Source of the DNA: a virus
IMG/VR virus record: IMGVR_UViG_3300015264_000004
Location: 1-59,661 of that record
Reading direction: 5' to 3' (one strand)
DNA length: 59,661 nt
Under the pieces are notes generated by a model that had not been told where the DNA came from, did not search any database, and saw only the letters and a list, made by a program, of their open reading frames with translations. Positions 1-59,661 of the stretch are shown here, in pieces (within the stretch, counting starts at the first letter, position 1; every line of letters starts with the position of its first letter). The position numbers were made by a program, and so were the translations under genes.

Positions 1-77
1 CGGCTTGACGCTAGATTTTTTGAGATAGCGCGGTGCGTGTTTAGTTCCGCGTTAATAAGTTTCGGAAACGTAGCCTC
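1..77. repeat. Terminal direct repeat, left copy (circular overlap)
   Basis: These 77 bases are identical to 59585-59661. The thyX frame continues through them from both sides, so they are one physical sequence present twice. A 77-base overlap is typical of a de Bruijn assembler closing a circle, which indicates a circular or circularly permuted molecule rather than a biological terminal repeat. Confidence 0.95.
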
Positions 78-3556: not shown

Positions 3557-4375
3557 TTATACGGCAAAAGGTCGATTACTTATGAACAATTCCTGACCCG
3601 GTACACAGGCCTTACCGCCTACATTATTCATTCCGTATCGCTTTGTCCATGGCCTGACATGCGCCCATGTGTATAAGTCTCTAATACCCTCTACATCATC
3701 GTATGTCATTAGCCAATGATGTTCGCAGGAGCGCAACAGACACGATAGGCGGCCATGGTCGAATTTTTGCAGATGTCCATTGATACCATAGATACCTGCG
3801 GCTGACATGTACGGTGGATCAAGATATATAAATACGTCGTCACCTGGGCACGTCAACAACGGTTCGTAATCATCGCAGGTAATGTGTATGTTAGGATATT
3901 TCATTGCGACAGCCAAACCATATAGCCTGCCAATACTCGACAGCGTAAACCGCTTGTCAAACGCTTGCTGACTATAGCCGCCACTCTCGATAGTCCCGGA
4001 AAAGGTAATCCGATTCAAAACGAAGAAGCGGGCAGCGCGTTCTATCTCATTCAGGGTATTTACGTCGCAATCCTTGTACATCCTAAATAACTCGCGGCCG
4101 TCTTTATACTCACGTTTGATTTCATATAATCGAGTAACTAACTGTTTCAGATGATCCATTGCAACCTGAAAATGCGTGGCAAGCTCAGGATTAATATCAT
4201 TGATCCAATACCGCCCTGCGGCTTCGCTCTGAAGCAAGGATAGGAACACTGACGCGCCGCCTAGAAACGGTTCGCGGTACTCCGTCATAGTTTCCGGGAT
4301 AAGAGGCAAGATGACCTTTAACGCATGCGCCTTACCACCGGGATAGCGTAACCAGCTTGGCATAGTCTTTACCAT
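3557..4375 (-). CDS. dam: Dam-like DNA adenine N6-methyltransferase (D12 class)
   Basis: 272 residues. Motif I is RYPGGKAHAL for AdoMet binding, FLGGASVFL follows, and the catalytic motif IV is DPPY (YLDPPYM). This order (alpha class) and length fit Dam/D12 methylases, which modify adenine, usually in GATC; the site here is inferred. Its start at 4375 lies within the end of the UvrD-like gene, so they are coupled. The likely roles are protection from host restriction or marking of phage DNA. Confidence 0.93.
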   Translation of the reverse strand: MVKTMPSWLRYPGGKAHALKVILPLIPETMTEYREPFLGGASVFLSLLQSEAAGRYWINDINPELATHFQVAMDHLKQLVTRLYEIKREYKDGRELFRMYKDCDVNTLNEIERAARFFVLNRITFSGTIESGGYSQQAFDKRFTLSSIGRLYGLAVAMKYPNIHITCDDYEPLLTCPGDDVFIYLDPPYMSAAGIYGINGHLQKFDHGRLSCLLRSCEHHWLMTYDDVEGIRDLYTWAHVRPWTKRYGMNNVGGKACVPGQELFISNRPFAV

Positions 4376-6399: not shown

Positions 6400-6530
6400 A
6401 ACACTTACCTAAACTGAAACACGATTTGTAATACGGTAATACGTTTTTTAGACGGAAAATGAAATCCGTTTTTTTTTTTTTGTCCAGAGTTTCATACGTC
6501 CCGTGTTTTGTATGACAAGTATTACCAGCC
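6300..6530. promoter_or_regulatory. AT-rich repeat region, candidate replication origin or control region
   Basis: Largest gap in the replication genes. It holds at least eight copies of a 7-mer family GTATGAC/GTATTAC in both orientations, including composite GTCATACTTGTAATAC (6320-6335) and GTATGACAAGTATTAC (6510-6525), tandem TACTTTATGTCA/TACTTTATAGGG, and 13 T at 6469-6481 behind a short hairpin. It lies between the primase stop and the helicase. Iteron-like repeats plus low melting energy suit an origin; a regulator array is the alternative. Confidence 0.45.
6343..6371 (-). promoter_or_regulatory. Putative promoter for the UvrD/dam transcript
   Basis: TTGTCA (6371-6366), 17 bp, TATAGG (6348-6343). 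The spacer consists of the GTCATACTT repeats, so a protein binding those repeats would control it. Confidence 0.5.
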
Positions 6531-8318
6531 CTCTTTTTCTTCGGTATCGGTTTCCGCGTTCGGATCATCTTCTTTAACGATATTTTTCGGTGTCCACTTG
6601 GCGGGCAATGACAGGACACTGACACACTTTGGATTACCGCGTTCGTCTCTGACGGTGTGAACAACTCTTTCCCCGCCGATACGATACAGGAATGTCATTA
6701 GCTCAGTCTTGGTTTTCTTGAATCCGAAGGCATGCTTGGCGTATTTCCAGAAACTCAGGGCGGAAATACATATTGCATTGTCGAGATATGCGGGCTGTGC
6801 GTGTGCCGCTGCCTGACGATGTTTCATAAGGCTTATCTCGACTGGCAAGAATTCATCAAGGTACTGTTGTAACATTTCCTTAATTTCGCCTAGCTCCGTC
6901 ATAGATTCGGCTACAGGCCTATCTTCCGCAAGATTCAATAGTTTCTGTGATGTCGGCCACCAAAGATCATCCTTCATACGTGGAACAACATGATTTATGC
7001 CGTTTGCAATTTGCCGCCTAAACGCGCTCTGTTCGATAAGGCTTAACACGTCACCCAGGTTGACATACTTGTCACCCGGAAAGTACATAATGAATTGCGG
7101 CGGTTGCGTCAAATGTTTTTCTATCTTTTCAATTCGGAAACCAAGGATTGTATAAAGTTGATCTATCAGGATATTATAATCGTCAGCCGGAGCGTGTGCC
7201 GCTGTGATCCGTTCGCGGGCCTGACGGTGCACGCTAGCAGCATCAAATATTGTCCGCTGATAATAGTCGATTCTATGCGCAGGATCACCGTACTTACGCC
7301 GGTGCGCAATCATCACATTGACTGTTTCTTGATCCGTCAGCCCGTTAACTATGCAGAGATTAGCCAGAGCCATATCATAGGAGCTACGGCTTTGGTCTGG
7401 CAGGTCTGACCGCTTGCGCTCCCATGTCTTTTTGAATTTTTTGGAATTGGCTGTAAGGGCTTCGAAAATCGCGGCCCCGATGTCCGCGTTATCGTCTACG
7501 GTAATATCTACCCGTTTCCAGGGCGCGTCAATATCAGGCTTTAGCTGCGTTACATTCGAAGCCTGTACACGCGCCTGCGGGCTGGTAGCCTTTTCTTTTG
7601 GTAGTTGCGCCCTGAGCGTATCAAGTAATCCCTCAAAGTCTGCGGTCGTATAGCGCTTATCATTGTCGAGATAGCTAATAGCCGCGAGTACTGGGGATTC
7701 TGCGATTTTATAATTCAGGGTGCCCGGTATTCGTAAGACCCGTGTTAGATCGTGCACGCTGTCAACATCCCATTTGTTTTTAGCGGCACGCCACTTAAAC
7801 ATGCGCTGCCATACTTCTATCAGCTTGGCAGCCTCTGCCCTTTCTTCGGCCTCGTTATCCCCGGCAAAAGTCCAAAAGTCTTTGAATAGCCAATAGGCAT
7901 GGATACCGTACCCGCTATGCACAATCATTGATACTGGTAATTCTATGGAATTGACTAACTCTACGGCTGCGTCAATGGTAGGCGGTAGGTTTCCCTTTTT
8001 ATGTACCCGTTTGTCCGGGTGTGCAACGTCAATATCTAAATGTATACCGCCGATGCCTGCCATAGCATCATGCTTGCCGCGTCCCGAGCGCGGTTTCGTG
8101 GCGACGGTAGCCACGCCGAAATACACATCGGTACCGGCTTCTTTTTGTCGAGTGGCGAACGTGGCAGCCTGGGTAATGTCTGCGTAAAAATGTCTTGTGC
8201 TGGCCTCTTCGGGGCCTGTTTTATTAAGCTGCCAAATGCAGATTAGATCATTTACAGGTTTGTTACCGAAAATAGCCGACAGGAATTCTAACGCGCTGGT
8301 GTTGTCGTTACCATTCAT
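6522..8318 (-). CDS. Archaeo-eukaryotic-type primase (PrimPol/RepB-like)
   Basis: 598 residues. The N-terminal 230 residues carry the primase triad: hhhDhD (IHLDIDVAHPDKR), the SxH motif (HSGYGIHAYWLF) and a later basic/hydrophobic motif (LTRVLRIPGTLNYK). The C-terminal two thirds show no Walker box, so no helicase domain is fused. This family makes RNA or DNA primers. Start ATG 8318 has a weak ribosome site. With no phage DNA polymerase seen, it probably primes for a host enzyme. Confidence 0.85.
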   Translation of the reverse strand: MNGNDNTSALEFLSAIFGNKPVNDLICIWQLNKTGPEEASTRHFYADITQAATFATRQKEAGTDVYFGVATVATKPRSGRGKHDAMAGIGGIHLDIDVAHPDKRVHKKGNLPPTIDAAVELVNSIELPVSMIVHSGYGIHAYWLFKDFWTFAGDNEAEERAEAAKLIEVWQRMFKWRAAKNKWDVDSVHDLTRVLRIPGTLNYKIAESPVLAAISYLDNDKRYTTADFEGLLDTLRAQLPKEKATSPQARVQASNVTQLKPDIDAPWKRVDITVDDNADIGAAIFEALTANSKKFKKTWERKRSDLPDQSRSSYDMALANLCIVNGLTDQETVNVMIAHRRKYGDPAHRIDYYQRTIFDAASVHRQARERITAAHAPADDYNILIDQLYTILGFRIEKIEKHLTQPPQFIMYFPGDKYVNLGDVLSLIEQSAFRRQIANGINHVVPRMKDDLWWPTSQKLLNLAEDRPVAESMTELGEIKEMLQQYLDEFLPVEISLMKHRQAAAHAQPAYLDNAICISALSFWKYAKHAFGFKKTKTELMTFLYRIGGERVVHTVRDERGNPKCVSVLSLPAKWTPKNIVKEDDPNAETDTEEKEGW

Positions 8319-12814: not shown

Positions 12815-12855
12815 GACTAACATGTACGCTGTGTACGTGTCAAGATATTTTCACG
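12815..12855 (-). promoter_or_regulatory. Promoter/operator for 12409-12753
   Basis: TTAGTC (12820-12815), 17 bp, TTGACA (12843-12838), upstream GTGAAAATATC. The spacer holds ACGTACACAGCGTACATG, itself partly palindromic. Confidence 0.6.
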
Positions 12856-13063
12856 CTACAATTGAAACATTCCGATTTTTCTTTTCCAAGGCCTTTTTAC
12901 GGCTGAAAAAGTTATCCCAGGCAATGCGCGACATCTGACGATAGCTTTCCGCGCTGGCTAGATTGCCACATTTTGTACACATCCCGGCATTTTGATCCGC
13001 GTTTAGGGCCTGAGTGTACCAGCTTTGCAAATCCTTATCGTCAGCTAATCCGTGATGCGTCAT
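12851..13063 (-). CDS. Small basic protein with CxxC, unknown
   Basis: 70 residues, one CTKC pair in the middle and a basic C-terminal helix (FFSRKKALEKKNRNVS). The ATG at 13063 follows GAGGATAAATAAC and sits inside the last codons and stop region of the TOPRIM gene, which argues for coupled expression. No family recognised. Confidence 0.65.
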   Translation of the reverse strand: MTHHGLADDKDLQSWYTQALNADQNAGMCTKCGNLASAESYRQMSRIAWDNFFSRKKALEKKNRNVSIVA

Positions 13064-13065
13064 TG

Positions 13066-14028
13066 TTATTTATCCTCTTCAGAGCCTTCGCCGGCCTCTG
13101 TCTCTTCGTCAATCCAGCCTTGATCTATGGTGTACTGGTGTACGTCGCCAAAATTATTCGATATAGCCCGCAGCGTTGCCCGGTGTTCGTTCTCTGTATC
13201 GACATCCTCTTGCCATTGATCGTCATCCCTGAGTTTTTCAACTTCGGTTCGAACAAGATCATTTAGCACGTCAGGCGGTAATGCATCAAGCTCCCATGAT
13301 TCGTGGCCGTGCAAGGCTATGTACCCATTTTCGCCGTGTGCCCGGCTGTCCGTAAGCTTTGTCGGGTTTGGCGGCGGGTTGTACGCTTCGACCTGGGCCA
13401 TATTAAGGGCCATACGCTCTACCCTAACGTCGGCCATGAATACTTGCATGCGGTCTGTAATGTCGCGTGTCATATCCAGACCTGACGGGTCATGGTCACC
13501 AAAATGCAGGATCACAGGTTGTTGACCTGCCTTTAGGTATTGGCGCATACGGAGCGAAGCCCGCCACGCTTCAGACTGTGAGTTGTAACCTTTACATGCA
13601 AAGTAAGGAATAAACATTTCCTCACAGACGCGCGCAAAGACTCCCGCGAGCGCTTCTTTCTCTATCCAGACTTCAATACGTACCGGCTGTTTAGCCCACT
13701 TATCAATACGAAAAGCCTGGGCGGCCGTGTCGAGGATTGCAGATGGGTTTTTCCATGTGCTAATACTCTGTAGATTGCGTGTGCGGTCCACCAAATGATT
13801 CCAGTCAAGCAAACCGGCAAGCCGGGCCTTCGATACCAGCTTGCCAAGGTTGTCATAGCTTTCCTCTTTGTTAGGAATGATATTCTGTGTCACAAGCTGA
13901 TAATAAAGTTGCCGCAGTGTCATATCATAGCCTTGACCGTGATACCGCTTTAAGATCGTGTCACACTGCTTAATTAGCTCATGACTCGCGGCCCGAAATT
14001 TAATGTTTTGATATATTATCTTTGACAT
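13066..14028 (-). CDS. Topoisomerase VI A/Spo11-like TOPRIM protein
   Basis: 320 residues. Residues about 30-50 read MTLRQLYYQL, matching the winged-helix motif that carries the catalytic tyrosine in Top6A/Spo11. A TOPRIM domain follows with the metal-binding Glu (RIEVWIEKEAL) and the DxD motif (FGDHDPSG). The C-terminus is acidic. Top6A/Spo11 enzymes break DNA with a tyrosine. No Top6B-like GHKL ATPase partner was seen, so the role (relaxation, nicking, recombination) is open. Confidence 0.75.
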   Translation of the reverse strand: MSKIIYQNIKFRAASHELIKQCDTILKRYHGQGYDMTLRQLYYQLVTQNIIPNKEESYDNLGKLVSKARLAGLLDWNHLVDRTRNLQSISTWKNPSAILDTAAQAFRIDKWAKQPVRIEVWIEKEALAGVFARVCEEMFIPYFACKGYNSQSEAWRASLRMRQYLKAGQQPVILHFGDHDPSGLDMTRDITDRMQVFMADVRVERMALNMAQVEAYNPPPNPTKLTDSRAHGENGYIALHGHESWELDALPPDVLNDLVRTEVEKLRDDDQWQEDVDTENEHRATLRAISNNFGDVHQYTIDQGWIDEETEAGEGSEEDK

Positions 14029-14224
14029 TGCGTTTTCGTTTTTCCCCTTTCCAAAGTGTAGATGTCAACAATTTAGTGTTATCGGTCACGTCCCCTATCA
14101 TTTCCTTGGCTGACTCAAAGTAACCGTGTTTGACATCGGTCTTTGCGCATTGAAGTACATTAATCATCCTGTCAAGACGTGCAATAACAGCGTCAGGATG
14201 TATCCTCGTTTTTCTCTCTGCCAT
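14000..14224 (-). CDS. Small helical protein, unknown
   Basis: 74 residues, basic and helical (VIARLDRMINVLQCAKTDVK). It starts at ATG 14224 after GAAAGGTAACGGAT and its end overlaps the start of the TOPRIM gene by 29 bases. Position suggests a partner or regulator of the TOPRIM protein, but no domain is recognised. Confidence 0.65.
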   Translation of the reverse strand: MAERKTRIHPDAVIARLDRMINVLQCAKTDVKHGYFESAKEMIGDVTDNTKLLTSTLWKGEKRKRNVKDNISKH

Positions 14225-15704: not shown

Positions 15705-16448
15705 TTAGGTGGTAGCTTTGCGTGTAGGGACACTCAGGTAGAGGTCGTTAGCGATAAGGCTCAGGCTTTCCCGGATGTCGAGGCCGTCAACGTCAAAGCC
15801 TGCGTGTATCCAGCCGTCAACCTGTCGGGCTGTCTCAGTCGAGAATAACTCGACACGTGGGATGTCGCCAAGCATCCGAACGATGCGGCCACGTGTTTCG
15901 TCCGGCTTGTGACTGTGATGCGAGACGGGAGCGTAGATTATCTGTTTGACATCCTTGGCTTCGCGCATCGGCGCGCCGCATTTAGCAAGGATCACAATTT
16001 CAGCGTTACCATTAGCCCAATAGCCCAGGCCTGAGAACGTGCCGCTAATCATTAATTGATTGGTTGTCGGTACGCCGGTCAGGATTTGACCCTTGGTATA
16101 GCTGTCCGATGTCAATAGAGGCTGATTACCAATCATTAATTCGGACATCTGGTAATCCGTCAACTCGACAAGCCTACCAGTCGAATTCAACTTGACCCAA
16201 ACAAAAGGCACGGTCACAAAGCGCATATCCCAGGCGTCAATCAATTCCAGCGCTTCGGGCAGCTTTGGCAGCGTGGCCCAAATAAACATGGCGCAATCGC
16301 GGGATGTAATCTGTTCTACCAGTGGCCCTAAATCCTTTAGGTCTGAAAGCGACATTCGGCCATAGCCCGTGCCGCCACGGGCCGGGTCCCCGGATTGGTC
16401 GTTGTCATACTGCCAGGGCGGGTCAATGTATATAACCGGAAAGCGCAT
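15705..16448 (-). CDS. MT-A70 family adenine methyltransferase
   Basis: 247 residues. The N-terminus IDPPWQYDND is the DPPW catalytic motif IV of the MT-A70/beta-class N6-adenine methylases, followed by GRMSLSDLKDL and the AdoMet-binding region near the C-terminus (SHKPDETRGRIVRMLG). In phages such enzymes methylate DNA against restriction; the target site is unknown. TTAGGAGC precedes the ATG. It is the second adenine methylase in the genome besides Dam. Confidence 0.9.
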   Translation of the reverse strand: MRFPVIYIDPPWQYDNDQSGDPARGGTGYGRMSLSDLKDLGPLVEQITSRDCAMFIWATLPKLPEALELIDAWDMRFVTVPFVWVKLNSTGRLVELTDYQMSELMIGNQPLLTSDSYTKGQILTGVPTTNQLMISGTFSGLGYWANGNAEIVILAKCGAPMREAKDVKQIIYAPVSHHSHKPDETRGRIVRMLGDIPRVELFSTETARQVDGWIHAGFDVDGLDIRESLSLIANDLYLSVPTRKATT

Positions 16449-37360: not shown

Positions 37361-37951
37361 TTATTGAATTGGTGCTACTGCAAATTGGTCCCATGCCGGT
37401 GTTGTTTTGCCAGCCTTCAACGCTGATAAAGCCTGCGCGCCTTCGGGTGTCATTCGACATAATGTTGCGATTTCAGCCGCTTCGGTTTCGGCTGTCGGCC
37501 CTTGTGCGCTGCCTTGTCCGTCATTGCTCAAAACCGAAACCCTGCCACTTGACGCAACGGTTTCACGCAACATCGGATTAACCGGCCGTGCCTGTATGCT
37601 GGCCTTGTAATTATTCAACGGCGCTTGATCCGGCAATGCCGCCATACTCATATAAGCCTGTTTCGCGCTGGCCTCTTCGGCCGGGGTGACCCTGCCTGCG
37701 GTTTTCATTTCGGAGAAAAAAGCGCTGCATTCTGCGGTTAAGGCCCGGTTTAGCATTGCTGTAATGGCCGGGTCTGTGCTGTTCGTTGTGGCCGGTGCTG
37801 TCTGTATTTGCGCGGGCTGTGCCGCAGGTTGTGCCGGTTGTGCCGCTACGGCCGGCTGTTCAGTAATGCCAAGAGCCGCTAATAATGCCTTTTTGTCATC
37901 ATCTGCCAATCCGGCCACTATTTTTCCGGCTAACTCAGTGTTAATTGCCAT
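37361..37951 (-). CDS. Internal-start scaffold protein (Nu3-like)
   Basis: 196 residues, same frame as the protease gene. ATG 37951 follows AGAAAGGGAAAACAAC, an excellent ribosome site that has no purpose inside a normal coding sequence. The product (AINTELAGKIVAGLADDDK onward) is the scaffold domain alone, as Nu3 is of lambda C. Expected in greater amount than the protease fusion. Confidence 0.75.
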   Translation of the reverse strand: MAINTELAGKIVAGLADDDKKALLAALGITEQPAVAAQPAQPAAQPAQIQTAPATTNSTDPAITAMLNRALTAECSAFFSEMKTAGRVTPAEEASAKQAYMSMAALPDQAPLNNYKASIQARPVNPMLRETVASSGRVSVLSNDGQGSAQGPTAETEAAEIATLCRMTPEGAQALSALKAGKTTPAWDQFAVAPIQ

Positions 37952-38818
37952 GTTGTTTTCCCTTTCTGTGGCCGATGTGGCCAAATCTGACGATACAAAA
38001 CCTGTAGTCTTTTTACGATGTTCCGCCTGTAATGTGGCTACAACACCCTCAAATGTTCCAAGCGCATCCGCCATGCCTACCGTAACGGCTTCGCCGCCAA
38101 GCATGACGCCGCCCTGTCCGAAGTCCGACATAACTTTCTCAGGAGTCACCCCGCGCATTGTGGCGACGGCATTAATAAACAAAACGCCGTATTTATCGAC
38201 CTGCCCTTGTATGTATTTGCCGCCCTCGTCCGTTGTCGGGTCTACCCTCTTGTATTGCGACTGCGAAGAGATAAAAGTTACTTCATTCTTGTTTGGCGGT
38301 CTGTGTACACTGACAACACCGATACTACCAGCATAGGCGCTGTCATGCATCGTAATCTTATCTGTTGCAATTGCCAGCCAATAGGCTCCTGACGCGCCTA
38401 CGCCGCCGATATACGCCTGTATAGGCTTACCCTTGCCACGCGCAGCCGTTATTTGCTGTGCAAGCTCCGATATACCGTTAGCCTCACCGCCTGGGCTGTC
38501 AACGTTGAAAAGTATCGAGTGTATTGTAGGATCGCTGAGCGCCGCCGCAAAGTCGGTAGCTAACACCTGTACGCTTGTCGCGTTACTCGACAATTCCGAA
38601 AACAGGTTAGCCCGGCGAAAAATCGGACCCTCGATAGGGATAATAGCCACACCGCCACGATTCTCAACTTTCCGCGTATTCTCTAACTTGCGGCCTAGCT
38701 GTGTAGCTACTGTTTCCGGGTTAAGATTCGACCTTTCAGCAATAGACAAAATCGTTTCAAGGTTTGCCTGCGGAATAGCCCATATTAATGACTGTACAAG
38801 CTGATAGGCTAGATTCAT
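37361..38818 (-). CDS. S49-type capsid maturation protease fused to scaffold
   Basis: 485 residues. N-terminal 270 residues are an S49/SppA-like protease: VDSPGGEANG and GGVGASGAYWLA (catalytic Ser). The C-terminal 200 residues are Ala/Gln/Pro-rich helical scaffold. As in lambda C/Nu3, an internal start (see 37361-37951) should give free scaffold. The stop/start overlap ATGA couples it to the portal gene. It processes the head during maturation. Confidence 0.9.
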   Translation of the reverse strand: MNLAYQLVQSLIWAIPQANLETILSIAERSNLNPETVATQLGRKLENTRKVENRGGVAIIPIEGPIFRRANLFSELSSNATSVQVLATDFAAALSDPTIHSILFNVDSPGGEANGISELAQQITAARGKGKPIQAYIGGVGASGAYWLAIATDKITMHDSAYAGSIGVVSVHRPPNKNEVTFISSQSQYKRVDPTTDEGGKYIQGQVDKYGVLFINAVATMRGVTPEKVMSDFGQGGVMLGGEAVTVGMADALGTFEGVVATLQAEHRKKTTGFVSSDLATSATERENNMAINTELAGKIVAGLADDDKKALLAALGITEQPAVAAQPAQPAAQPAQIQTAPATTNSTDPAITAMLNRALTAECSAFFSEMKTAGRVTPAEEASAKQAYMSMAALPDQAPLNNYKASIQARPVNPMLRETVASSGRVSVLSNDGQGSAQGPTAETEAAEIATLCRMTPEGAQALSALKAGKTTPAWDQFAVAPIQ

Positions 38819-53674: not shown

Positions 53675-53909
53675 GGTATTTTTCACTGCCCGCAAGTAAA
53701 CAATCGTGACAATTATTACGATTTGTATAATTATCACGATTATTATAGCTATTACAATTGTGACGATTGTTACAATTGTTATGTTTGTTATATCTATTAC
53801 GATTTGGACATTTGTTACAATTCAGACTTTTTCCGATTTTTCAATTTTTTTTTATAGATTCTCTCGCACATGTTACCATGGCCCGTTTTGTGTACGAAAG
53901 TACGAACAT
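53670..53909 (-). pseudogene. Asn/Cys/His-rich reading frame interrupted by one UGA
   Basis: From ATG 53909 the frame reads 22 codons (MFVLSYTKRA..., second ATG at 53879), then TGA at 53843-53841, then 56 codons to TAA at 53672-53670, which coincides with the operator TAA used as stop by neighbouring cassette genes. The second part is a three-residue repeat rich in Asn with Cys, His and Arg (NCNKCPNRNRYNKHNNCN). It may be a broken gene, UGA read-through, or a by-product of the DNA repeat. Confidence 0.3.
53706..53822. repeat. 9-bp degenerate tandem repeat (about 13 units)
   Basis: On the plus strand the units follow RTTACRATT (for example ATTACGATT, GTTACAATT, GTGACGATT). Strict 9-base phase is kept over about 117 bases in a very AT-rich setting. 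No gene I accept covers it. Iterons, a regulator array or a silent DNA-unwinding element are possible. Confidence 0.85.
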
Positions 53910-58678: not shown

Positions 58679-59661
58679 ATTCCGCGCTCCTGACAGCCGC
58701 AATAAAACAAATGGCTCCCGCAAACCGGACATGGTTCGGAATTGTTACCAAAATTCGTTACGCAGCCTTTCGCAGCCTCTTTTGCCTTGTCGCATCCTTC
58801 AGGTTGCACAAACTGCCCGACATGCTTTGTTACCATCGCATCCCGGATGTGTGCTAACTCAGGCAGGTTTGGTAAGAAGTGACGCCGGTTTTCGTCCTTA
58901 AATTCCTTCCGGTACTGGTGGTACCCGCGCAGATTACCTTGTTTGCGGCAATCTTCCCTCGTATCTATAGGACAGTCGCAGGGTGTTGCCACATGTTCGA
59001 ATGGTGACCAATGGCCAGAGCCTAGCAACTTATCGAACAGGTCAACATCCTTGCGCATGTCCGGGGCTGTTTGATCGTGATTCAAGTATGACACCCTGGC
59101 GCAGCGCGCCGTAGATACCTGACGCAAATCCAGCAAGTTTACGGGGTCCACATTCCACATGCCTATTTCGGCATTGGTTACGTATGGTAAATGGTATTCA
59201 CCGGGTTTTAATTCCTGCGGCGTGCTGGTGTAATAAACCATCTGGATAGCATCGGCTAACGCTTTCATTTCGGGTTGTGCCGCAGGGTGACACCGTTGCC
59301 AGAAAAAGTTATCCCACTCCGTAGCCGTAAGAATCGCAGTTACCCACAACCACGGCTCAAGATAGCGATTGGCATGTTGCTTATGCAATCCCTCGACTTC
59401 GGTTAACTGCCTGACACAATGTACAGCGCTATTCTTTAGCGCTAGGATGCGAGCTAGGGCTGTCCGGGCTTTGACGGAATCTATATGTTGCGGCGCTTGC
59501 ATACCGGCCACGTTAGCGCCGTACCATATTGGCGTATACGGATCATTGCTAACCATGTCAAGTATGCGCTTTGACGGTATGGCGCGGCTTGACGCTAGAT
59601 TTTTTGAGATAGCGCGGTGCGTGTTTAGTTCCGCGTTAATAAGTTTCGGAAACGTAGCCTC
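58675..59661 (-). CDS. thyX: ThyX, main part (continues at 182-1)
   Basis: Right-hand piece of the thyX gene. After the signature it reads GLHKQHANRYLEPWLWVTAI and TATEWDNFFWQRCHP, the variant ThyX helices common in phages, and ends with a CPVCGSHLFYCGC cluster absent from most ThyX, probably a zinc site. The whole protein of 363 residues is longer than bacterial ThyX (about 220-250). The frame has no start inside this piece until 59556, which is internal. Confidence 0.93.
   Translation of the reverse strand, partial: EATFPKLINAELNTHRAISKNLASSRAIPSKRILDMVSNDPYTPIWYGANVAGMQAPQHIDSVKARTALARILALKNSAVHCVRQLTEVEGLHKQHANRYLEPWLWVTAILTATEWDNFFWQRCHPAAQPEMKALADAIQMVYYTSTPQELKPGEYHLPYVTNAEIGMWNVDPVNLLDLRQVSTARCARVSYLNHDQTAPDMRKDVDLFDKLLGSGHWSPFEHVATPCDCPIDTREDCRKQGNLRGYHQYRKEFKDENRRHFLPNLPELAHIRDAMVTKHVGQFVQPEGCDKAKEAAKGCVTNFGNNSEPCPVCGSHLFYCGCQERGI
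59585..59661. repeat. Terminal direct repeat, right copy (circular overlap)
   Basis: Exact copy of bases 1-77. Removing one copy leaves 59,584 bp and restores one uninterrupted thyX gene. Confidence 0.95.

Follow-up and report, generated by a model that had tools for sequence, protein, structure and literature searches.

A phage Mini-A protein with the Top6A/Spo11 active-site residues and a predicted electrostatic clasp

The locus and its phage genome

The stretch of DNA analysed here (the window) comprises positions 1–59,661 of the virus record IMGVR_UViG_3300015264_000004, 59,661 nucleotides in all, and carries tail, tape-measure, portal and terminase genes on the same contig. An exact 77-base direct repeat is found at both ends (window 1–77 and 59585–59661), so the window probably represents a complete genome that is circular or circularly permuted. 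On its minus strand, a complete open reading frame (ORF) of 320 codons, running from ATG to stop, fills the 963-base span 13066–14028; the plus strand across the same span is broken by many stops. An earlier reading of this DNA (the original prediction) had placed an orphan protein resembling topoisomerase VI subunit A (Top6A) or Spo11 at this position, an observation that stands and to which we add the minus strand and the name of a known family. The 320-aa product consists of an N-terminal winged-helix part with a tyrosine motif, a TOPRIM domain, and a C-terminal SWELDAL segment with helices. Two small minus-strand ORFs adjoin it, one upstream (14000–14224, 74 aa), sharing 29 nt with the beginning of the gene, and one downstream (12851–13063, 70 aa), beginning 2 bases past its stop codon.

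The gene sits within a minus-strand replication block that also encodes a D12 methyltransferase, a UvrD-like helicase, a primase/polymerase-like protein, an SNF2-type helicase and an MT-A70 methyltransferase. Adenine methyltransferases of two kinds, D12 and MT-A70 (3557–4375 and 15705–16448), thus occur together in this one phage. The protein encoded at 6522–8318 matched primase/polymerase families over its N-terminal third only, and none of the scanned window proteins was recognisable as a complete DNA polymerase. Outside this block, an S49-type peptidase gene (37361–38818), which probably encodes the head maturation protease, adjoins the portal gene. Nine to ten copies of a dispersed element with the core TATCGGAGCCTGT(A/C)AA(A/G)ATAACTTTAC lie between 47559 and 53683, most of them containing the palindrome GTAAAGATAACTTTAC; the copies are located immediately upstream of successive minus-strand early-type genes, and the element is probably a phage promoter or operator. 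Adjoining its last copy is a degenerate 9-base tandem repeat (ACAATTNTT-like) present in seven overlapping copies (53700–53816).

Assignment to Mini-A, active-site residues and fold

In PHROGs, the protein falls in phrog_6247, labelled 'DNA topoisomerase' (E = 5.6e-111). Relatives were found by tblastn in 76 phage records spread over many genera, several of them annotated as DNA topoisomerase, including gp49 of Pseudomonas phage NP1, to which the protein is 46% identical over 89% (E = 1e-73). Further relatives are encoded in at least 531 IMG/VR stretches and in 163 stretches of prokaryote genomes. Partnerless viral homologues of Top6A were reportedly given the name Mini-A by Takahashi et al. 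in 2020 and have been discussed in reviews, so the orphan status that the original prediction singled out as notable is not new. Mini-A proteins are described as truncated Top6A homologues of phages and archaeal viruses, with that of Pseudomonas phage NP1 drawn as an example (PMC7614492, Fig. 4); the legend gives the phage name only, and the gene drawn would be gp49. Other reviews repeat this description and give the function as unknown, and in the Mini-A literature considered here, which consists of reviews, we found no published activity, dimerisation or covalent link for a Mini-A.

PHROG membership and homology to the protein of NP1, drawn as a Mini-A, identify the gene by sequence as a Mini-A, a kind already named and almost unstudied. 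Its product is a short viral Top6A homologue with the tyrosine and the Glu/DxD residues, it is homologous to a named Mini-A and it is encoded without a B subunit. It belongs with the NP1 example in sequence, in size, in being virus-borne and in being a single A-like subunit without B, and no difference of kind was found. PPPNPxKxTDSR and SWELDAL are common to the phage Mini-A family; this copy is distinguished by a short insert (residues about 231–233), which few relatives share, and by a longer acidic C-terminal tail (about 309–320), which is rare among them. No Pfam model matched any of 82 Mini-A members; a match to MatP (E = 0.02) did not reach the cut-off and was taken as chance. Searches of PDB sequences returned no significant match, whether the query was the single protein, a shallow profile or a deep one.

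The tyrosine motif that the original prediction had noticed ahead of a TOPRIM Glu and a DxD pair is real, as are the latter two. The first motif, T37-L-R39-Q-L-Y-Y43-Q (residues 37–45, TLRQLYYQL; 13894–13920, minus strand), contains the predicted catalytic tyrosine, Y43. The TOPRIM catalytic glutamate, E123, followed by K124 (13657–13662, minus strand), lies at the end of the first TOPRIM strand (residues 116–122 in the structural model). The metal-binding DxD motif, D178-H-D180-P-S-G183 (residues 178–183, DHDPSG; 13480–13497, minus strand), was aligned by hhalign with the DxDP of Top6A, and the segment WELDAL (residues 245–250; 13279–13296, minus strand) contains E246. R39, Y43, E123, D178, D180 and E246 are invariant in all 162 aligned Mini-A members, a count that is inflated because the set was mostly fetched by patterns over these motifs. 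The same residues are also present in 11 of 11 phage proteins retrieved by plain tblastn (38–48% identity). Invariance in the 162 members, together with presence in these independently fetched proteins, indicates that the motifs are not due to chance.

The residue next to the predicted catalytic tyrosine, Y42, is replaced by Phe in 7 of the 162 members. In mouse SPO11 the catalytic Y138 is the second of two tyrosines, and yeast has Phe in the first position (PMC11922746), so that the Phe/Tyr variation in Mini-A mirrors the tandem tyrosines of Spo11. The spacing of the active-site residues fits Top6A and Spo11 as well: 80 residues separate the Tyr from the Glu and 55 the Glu from the first Asp in Mini-A, compared with 96–100 and 52 in most Top6A and with 86 and 53, as counted from residue numbers, in mouse SPO11.

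The AlphaFold2 model of the full-length protein (mean pLDDT 91) has a TOPRIM strand–helix order following the winged-helix part. Structure prediction against Top6A had been proposed as a check, and it gave a match for one part of the protein. With Foldseek, the full-length model had no significant match in the PDB, with Top6A outside the top 50, and one short match in a viral library. The fragment 108–262, modelled separately (pLDDT 89), matched two of 350,542 PDB chains with E ≤ 0.001 and no others, both of them Methanosarcina mazei Top6A (E = 1.7e-4 and 2.5e-4, probability 1.00, TM 0.54). Profiles of the TOPRIM segment from Mini-A and from 74 Top6A sequences aligned with E = 8e-4, a score reached by none of 200 column permutations; the full-length profile alignment was weaker (E = 0.008–0.01), the E = 0.008 result lying above all 60 permutations. 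The TOPRIM domain is thus predicted to have a Top6A-type fold. Because the TOPRIM fragment alone matched, the winged-helix part is assigned only by its motif and position. The description of a Top6A/Spo11-like phage protein is borne out by the family assignment, by the register of the motifs and by the fold match of the TOPRIM domain.

A predicted clasp and the missing B subunit

In M. mazei Top6A, cleavage is restrained by the pairing of E342 with R102, which is located four residues before the catalytic Y106; the E342Q mutant shows far more cutting (PMC13040014). Both residues of this pair are invariant in 74 Top6A sequences. The distance from the DxD motif to the Glu is 88 residues in the reference sequence (L168), the same as that between D254 and E342 in M. 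mazei. R39 of Mini-A is likewise four residues before Y43, and a global profile alignment sets ELDAL of Mini-A on E-QQAL of Top6A, which puts E246 on the clasp Glu. The R39–E246 pair would thus be the equivalent of the Arg–Glu 'electrostatic clasp' of Top6A. The stalk of the Top6 B subunit is thought to control the clasp; since the invariant R39 and E246 align with it, Mini-A seems to have retained the catch even though the ATPase subunit that operates it is missing. This predicted clasp is the main addition made here. Mini-A accordingly resembles Top6A in its Tyr motif with Arg at position −4, its TOPRIM Glu and DxD, its predicted clasp Glu and its TOPRIM fold, and differs in being shorter, in having 68 rather than 88 residues between the Asp and the clasp Glu, in lacking an encoded B subunit, and in that the Pfam domain of the Top6A N terminus, TP6A_N, had no match in the window record.

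Topo VI requires its B subunit, and the clasp residues tied in Top6 to the stalk of that subunit are invariant in Mini-A; both points would fit a protein that depends on an ATPase partner of other origin, either a host protein or a phage protein not recognised as such, with which it would form a topoisomerase VI-like holoenzyme. The surroundings of Mini-A genes argue against this reading, which we consider unlikely. No gene resembling the B subunit of the A2B2 topoisomerase VI holoenzyme, with its GHKL and transducer domains, was found in the window record. The Topo-VIb transducer (PF09239), which the same search detected in four archaea, was found in none of 50 Mini-A virus records (the window and 49 others, some of which may be fragments), and HATPase_c_3 (PF13589) was above the cut-off in none of the same 50, in keeping with the lack of a Top6B/GHKL partner that had been claimed for this phage. 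A weak HATPase_c_3-like stretch below the cut-off was seen in a 520-aa frame in one of the other records (that of L036; locus L255, G240:C1:14778–15038).

The small flanking genes had been put forward as possible partners. The ORFs exist, but no homologue of the 14000–14224 protein or of the 12851–13063 protein was found among the phages of the collection or at 170 other Mini-A loci; they are unlikely to be partners, because neither has a relative beside any other Mini-A. Clustering of the ORFs at 84 Mini-A loci revealed no constant neighbour and no gene family in more than about one-seventh of the loci, the commonest clusters being antisense ORFs over Mini-A itself and assorted helicases. The genes beside Mini-A in annotated phages serve replication and recombination and differ from phage to phage; they include ThyX, and also Sak4, a Cas4-type exonuclease, a ligase and a primase in one case, a DNA polymerase in another, and a DNA polymerase, a Cas4 exonuclease and endonuclease V in a further one. 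Neighbours that vary within the range of replication and recombination genes are more readily explained by a self-contained enzyme of DNA metabolism than by a fixed system of two proteins. Their presence in several phages also makes plausible the suggestion that Mini-A is a stand-alone breaker or nickase in phage recombination.

Such genes near Mini-A in some phages, together with an active-site set (Tyr, Glu and DxD, with tandem tyrosines) that is the same as in Spo11, might also suggest a Spo11-like one-way breaker, which would set off recombination or host DNA degradation by covalent double-strand breaks in the DNA of phage or host. Spo11 itself is a eukaryotic meiotic protein with B-like partners; Mini-A is encoded by a phage and has no known regulators. 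Mini-A loci share no dedicated end-processing partner, breakage without restraint would harm the phage, and the conserved predicted clasp argues for restraint, which leaves one-way breakage improbable to a similar degree. A TOPRIM nuclease of defence or anti-defence, unrelated to topoisomerases, is very improbable: its fold is common to the OLD, Gabija and Wadjet JetD systems, and the Foldseek list for the full-length model contains a weak hit to an OLD chain, but the TOPRIM fragment has significant matches to Top6A and none to OLD or GajA, the Arg-Tyr-Tyr motif is invariant, and PADLOC gave no match. Equally hard to credit is a DNA-binding or architectural protein that has lost catalysis, since all catalytic residues are present in 162/162 and 11/11 sequences, even though some relatives in Microbacterium phages are annotated 'DNA binding protein' and many of the related Topo VIII enzymes are described as inactivated to a variable extent.

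A proposed clasp-restrained enzyme without an ATPase subunit

The reading that we favour, with a probability of roughly 0.7, is that Mini-A is a stand-alone Top6A homologue that acts as a clasp-restrained homodimer, cutting and resealing DNA without an ATPase subunit. Topoisomerase VIII, another type IIB relative on mobile elements, is a fusion of A and B parts with a GHKL ATPase, whereas the Mini-A ORF is of 320 aa and has no GHKL match. Topoisomerase VIII is usually a homodimer, and some of these enzymes relax or cleave DNA without ATP, many others being described as inactivated to varying degrees (PMC7614492). Mouse SPO11 needs no partners to cut DNA as a dimer, and its dimers can also reseal nicks (PMC11922746).

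Beyond the active-site comparison, we infer each step of the mechanism. Mini-A would form a homodimer on DNA in which Y43 from one protomer, acting together with a divalent metal and with E123, D178 and D180 from the second protomer, would attack the DNA backbone to form a 5′-phosphotyrosyl link. The products would be nicks or staggered double-strand breaks that Mini-A itself could reseal; ATP-driven strand passage is not expected, because Mini-A is without an ATPase subunit. The R39–E246 salt bridge would hold Y43 back until DNA bending, supercoiling or a further factor of phage or host origin releases it. Such an enzyme would most probably be used for local supercoil relief or controlled breakage in phage DNA replication and recombination. 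A narrower version, in which Mini-A is a minimal, self-contained type IIB enzyme that breaks and reseals double strands and whose R39–E246 lock is freed by DNA geometry, is put forward tentatively, as a possibility well short of even odds; if true, it would make Mini-A a natural partner-free model for the control of Spo11.

The gene at 13066–14028 is itself one more member of the Mini-A family. That family is widespread in phages and appears to combine the whole Top6A/Spo11 active site and a cleavage-restraining salt bridge in a protein without a B subunit. If active alone, Mini-A would be the simplest type IIB enzyme and may offer a tractable system in which to study the restraint of Spo11-like cutting.
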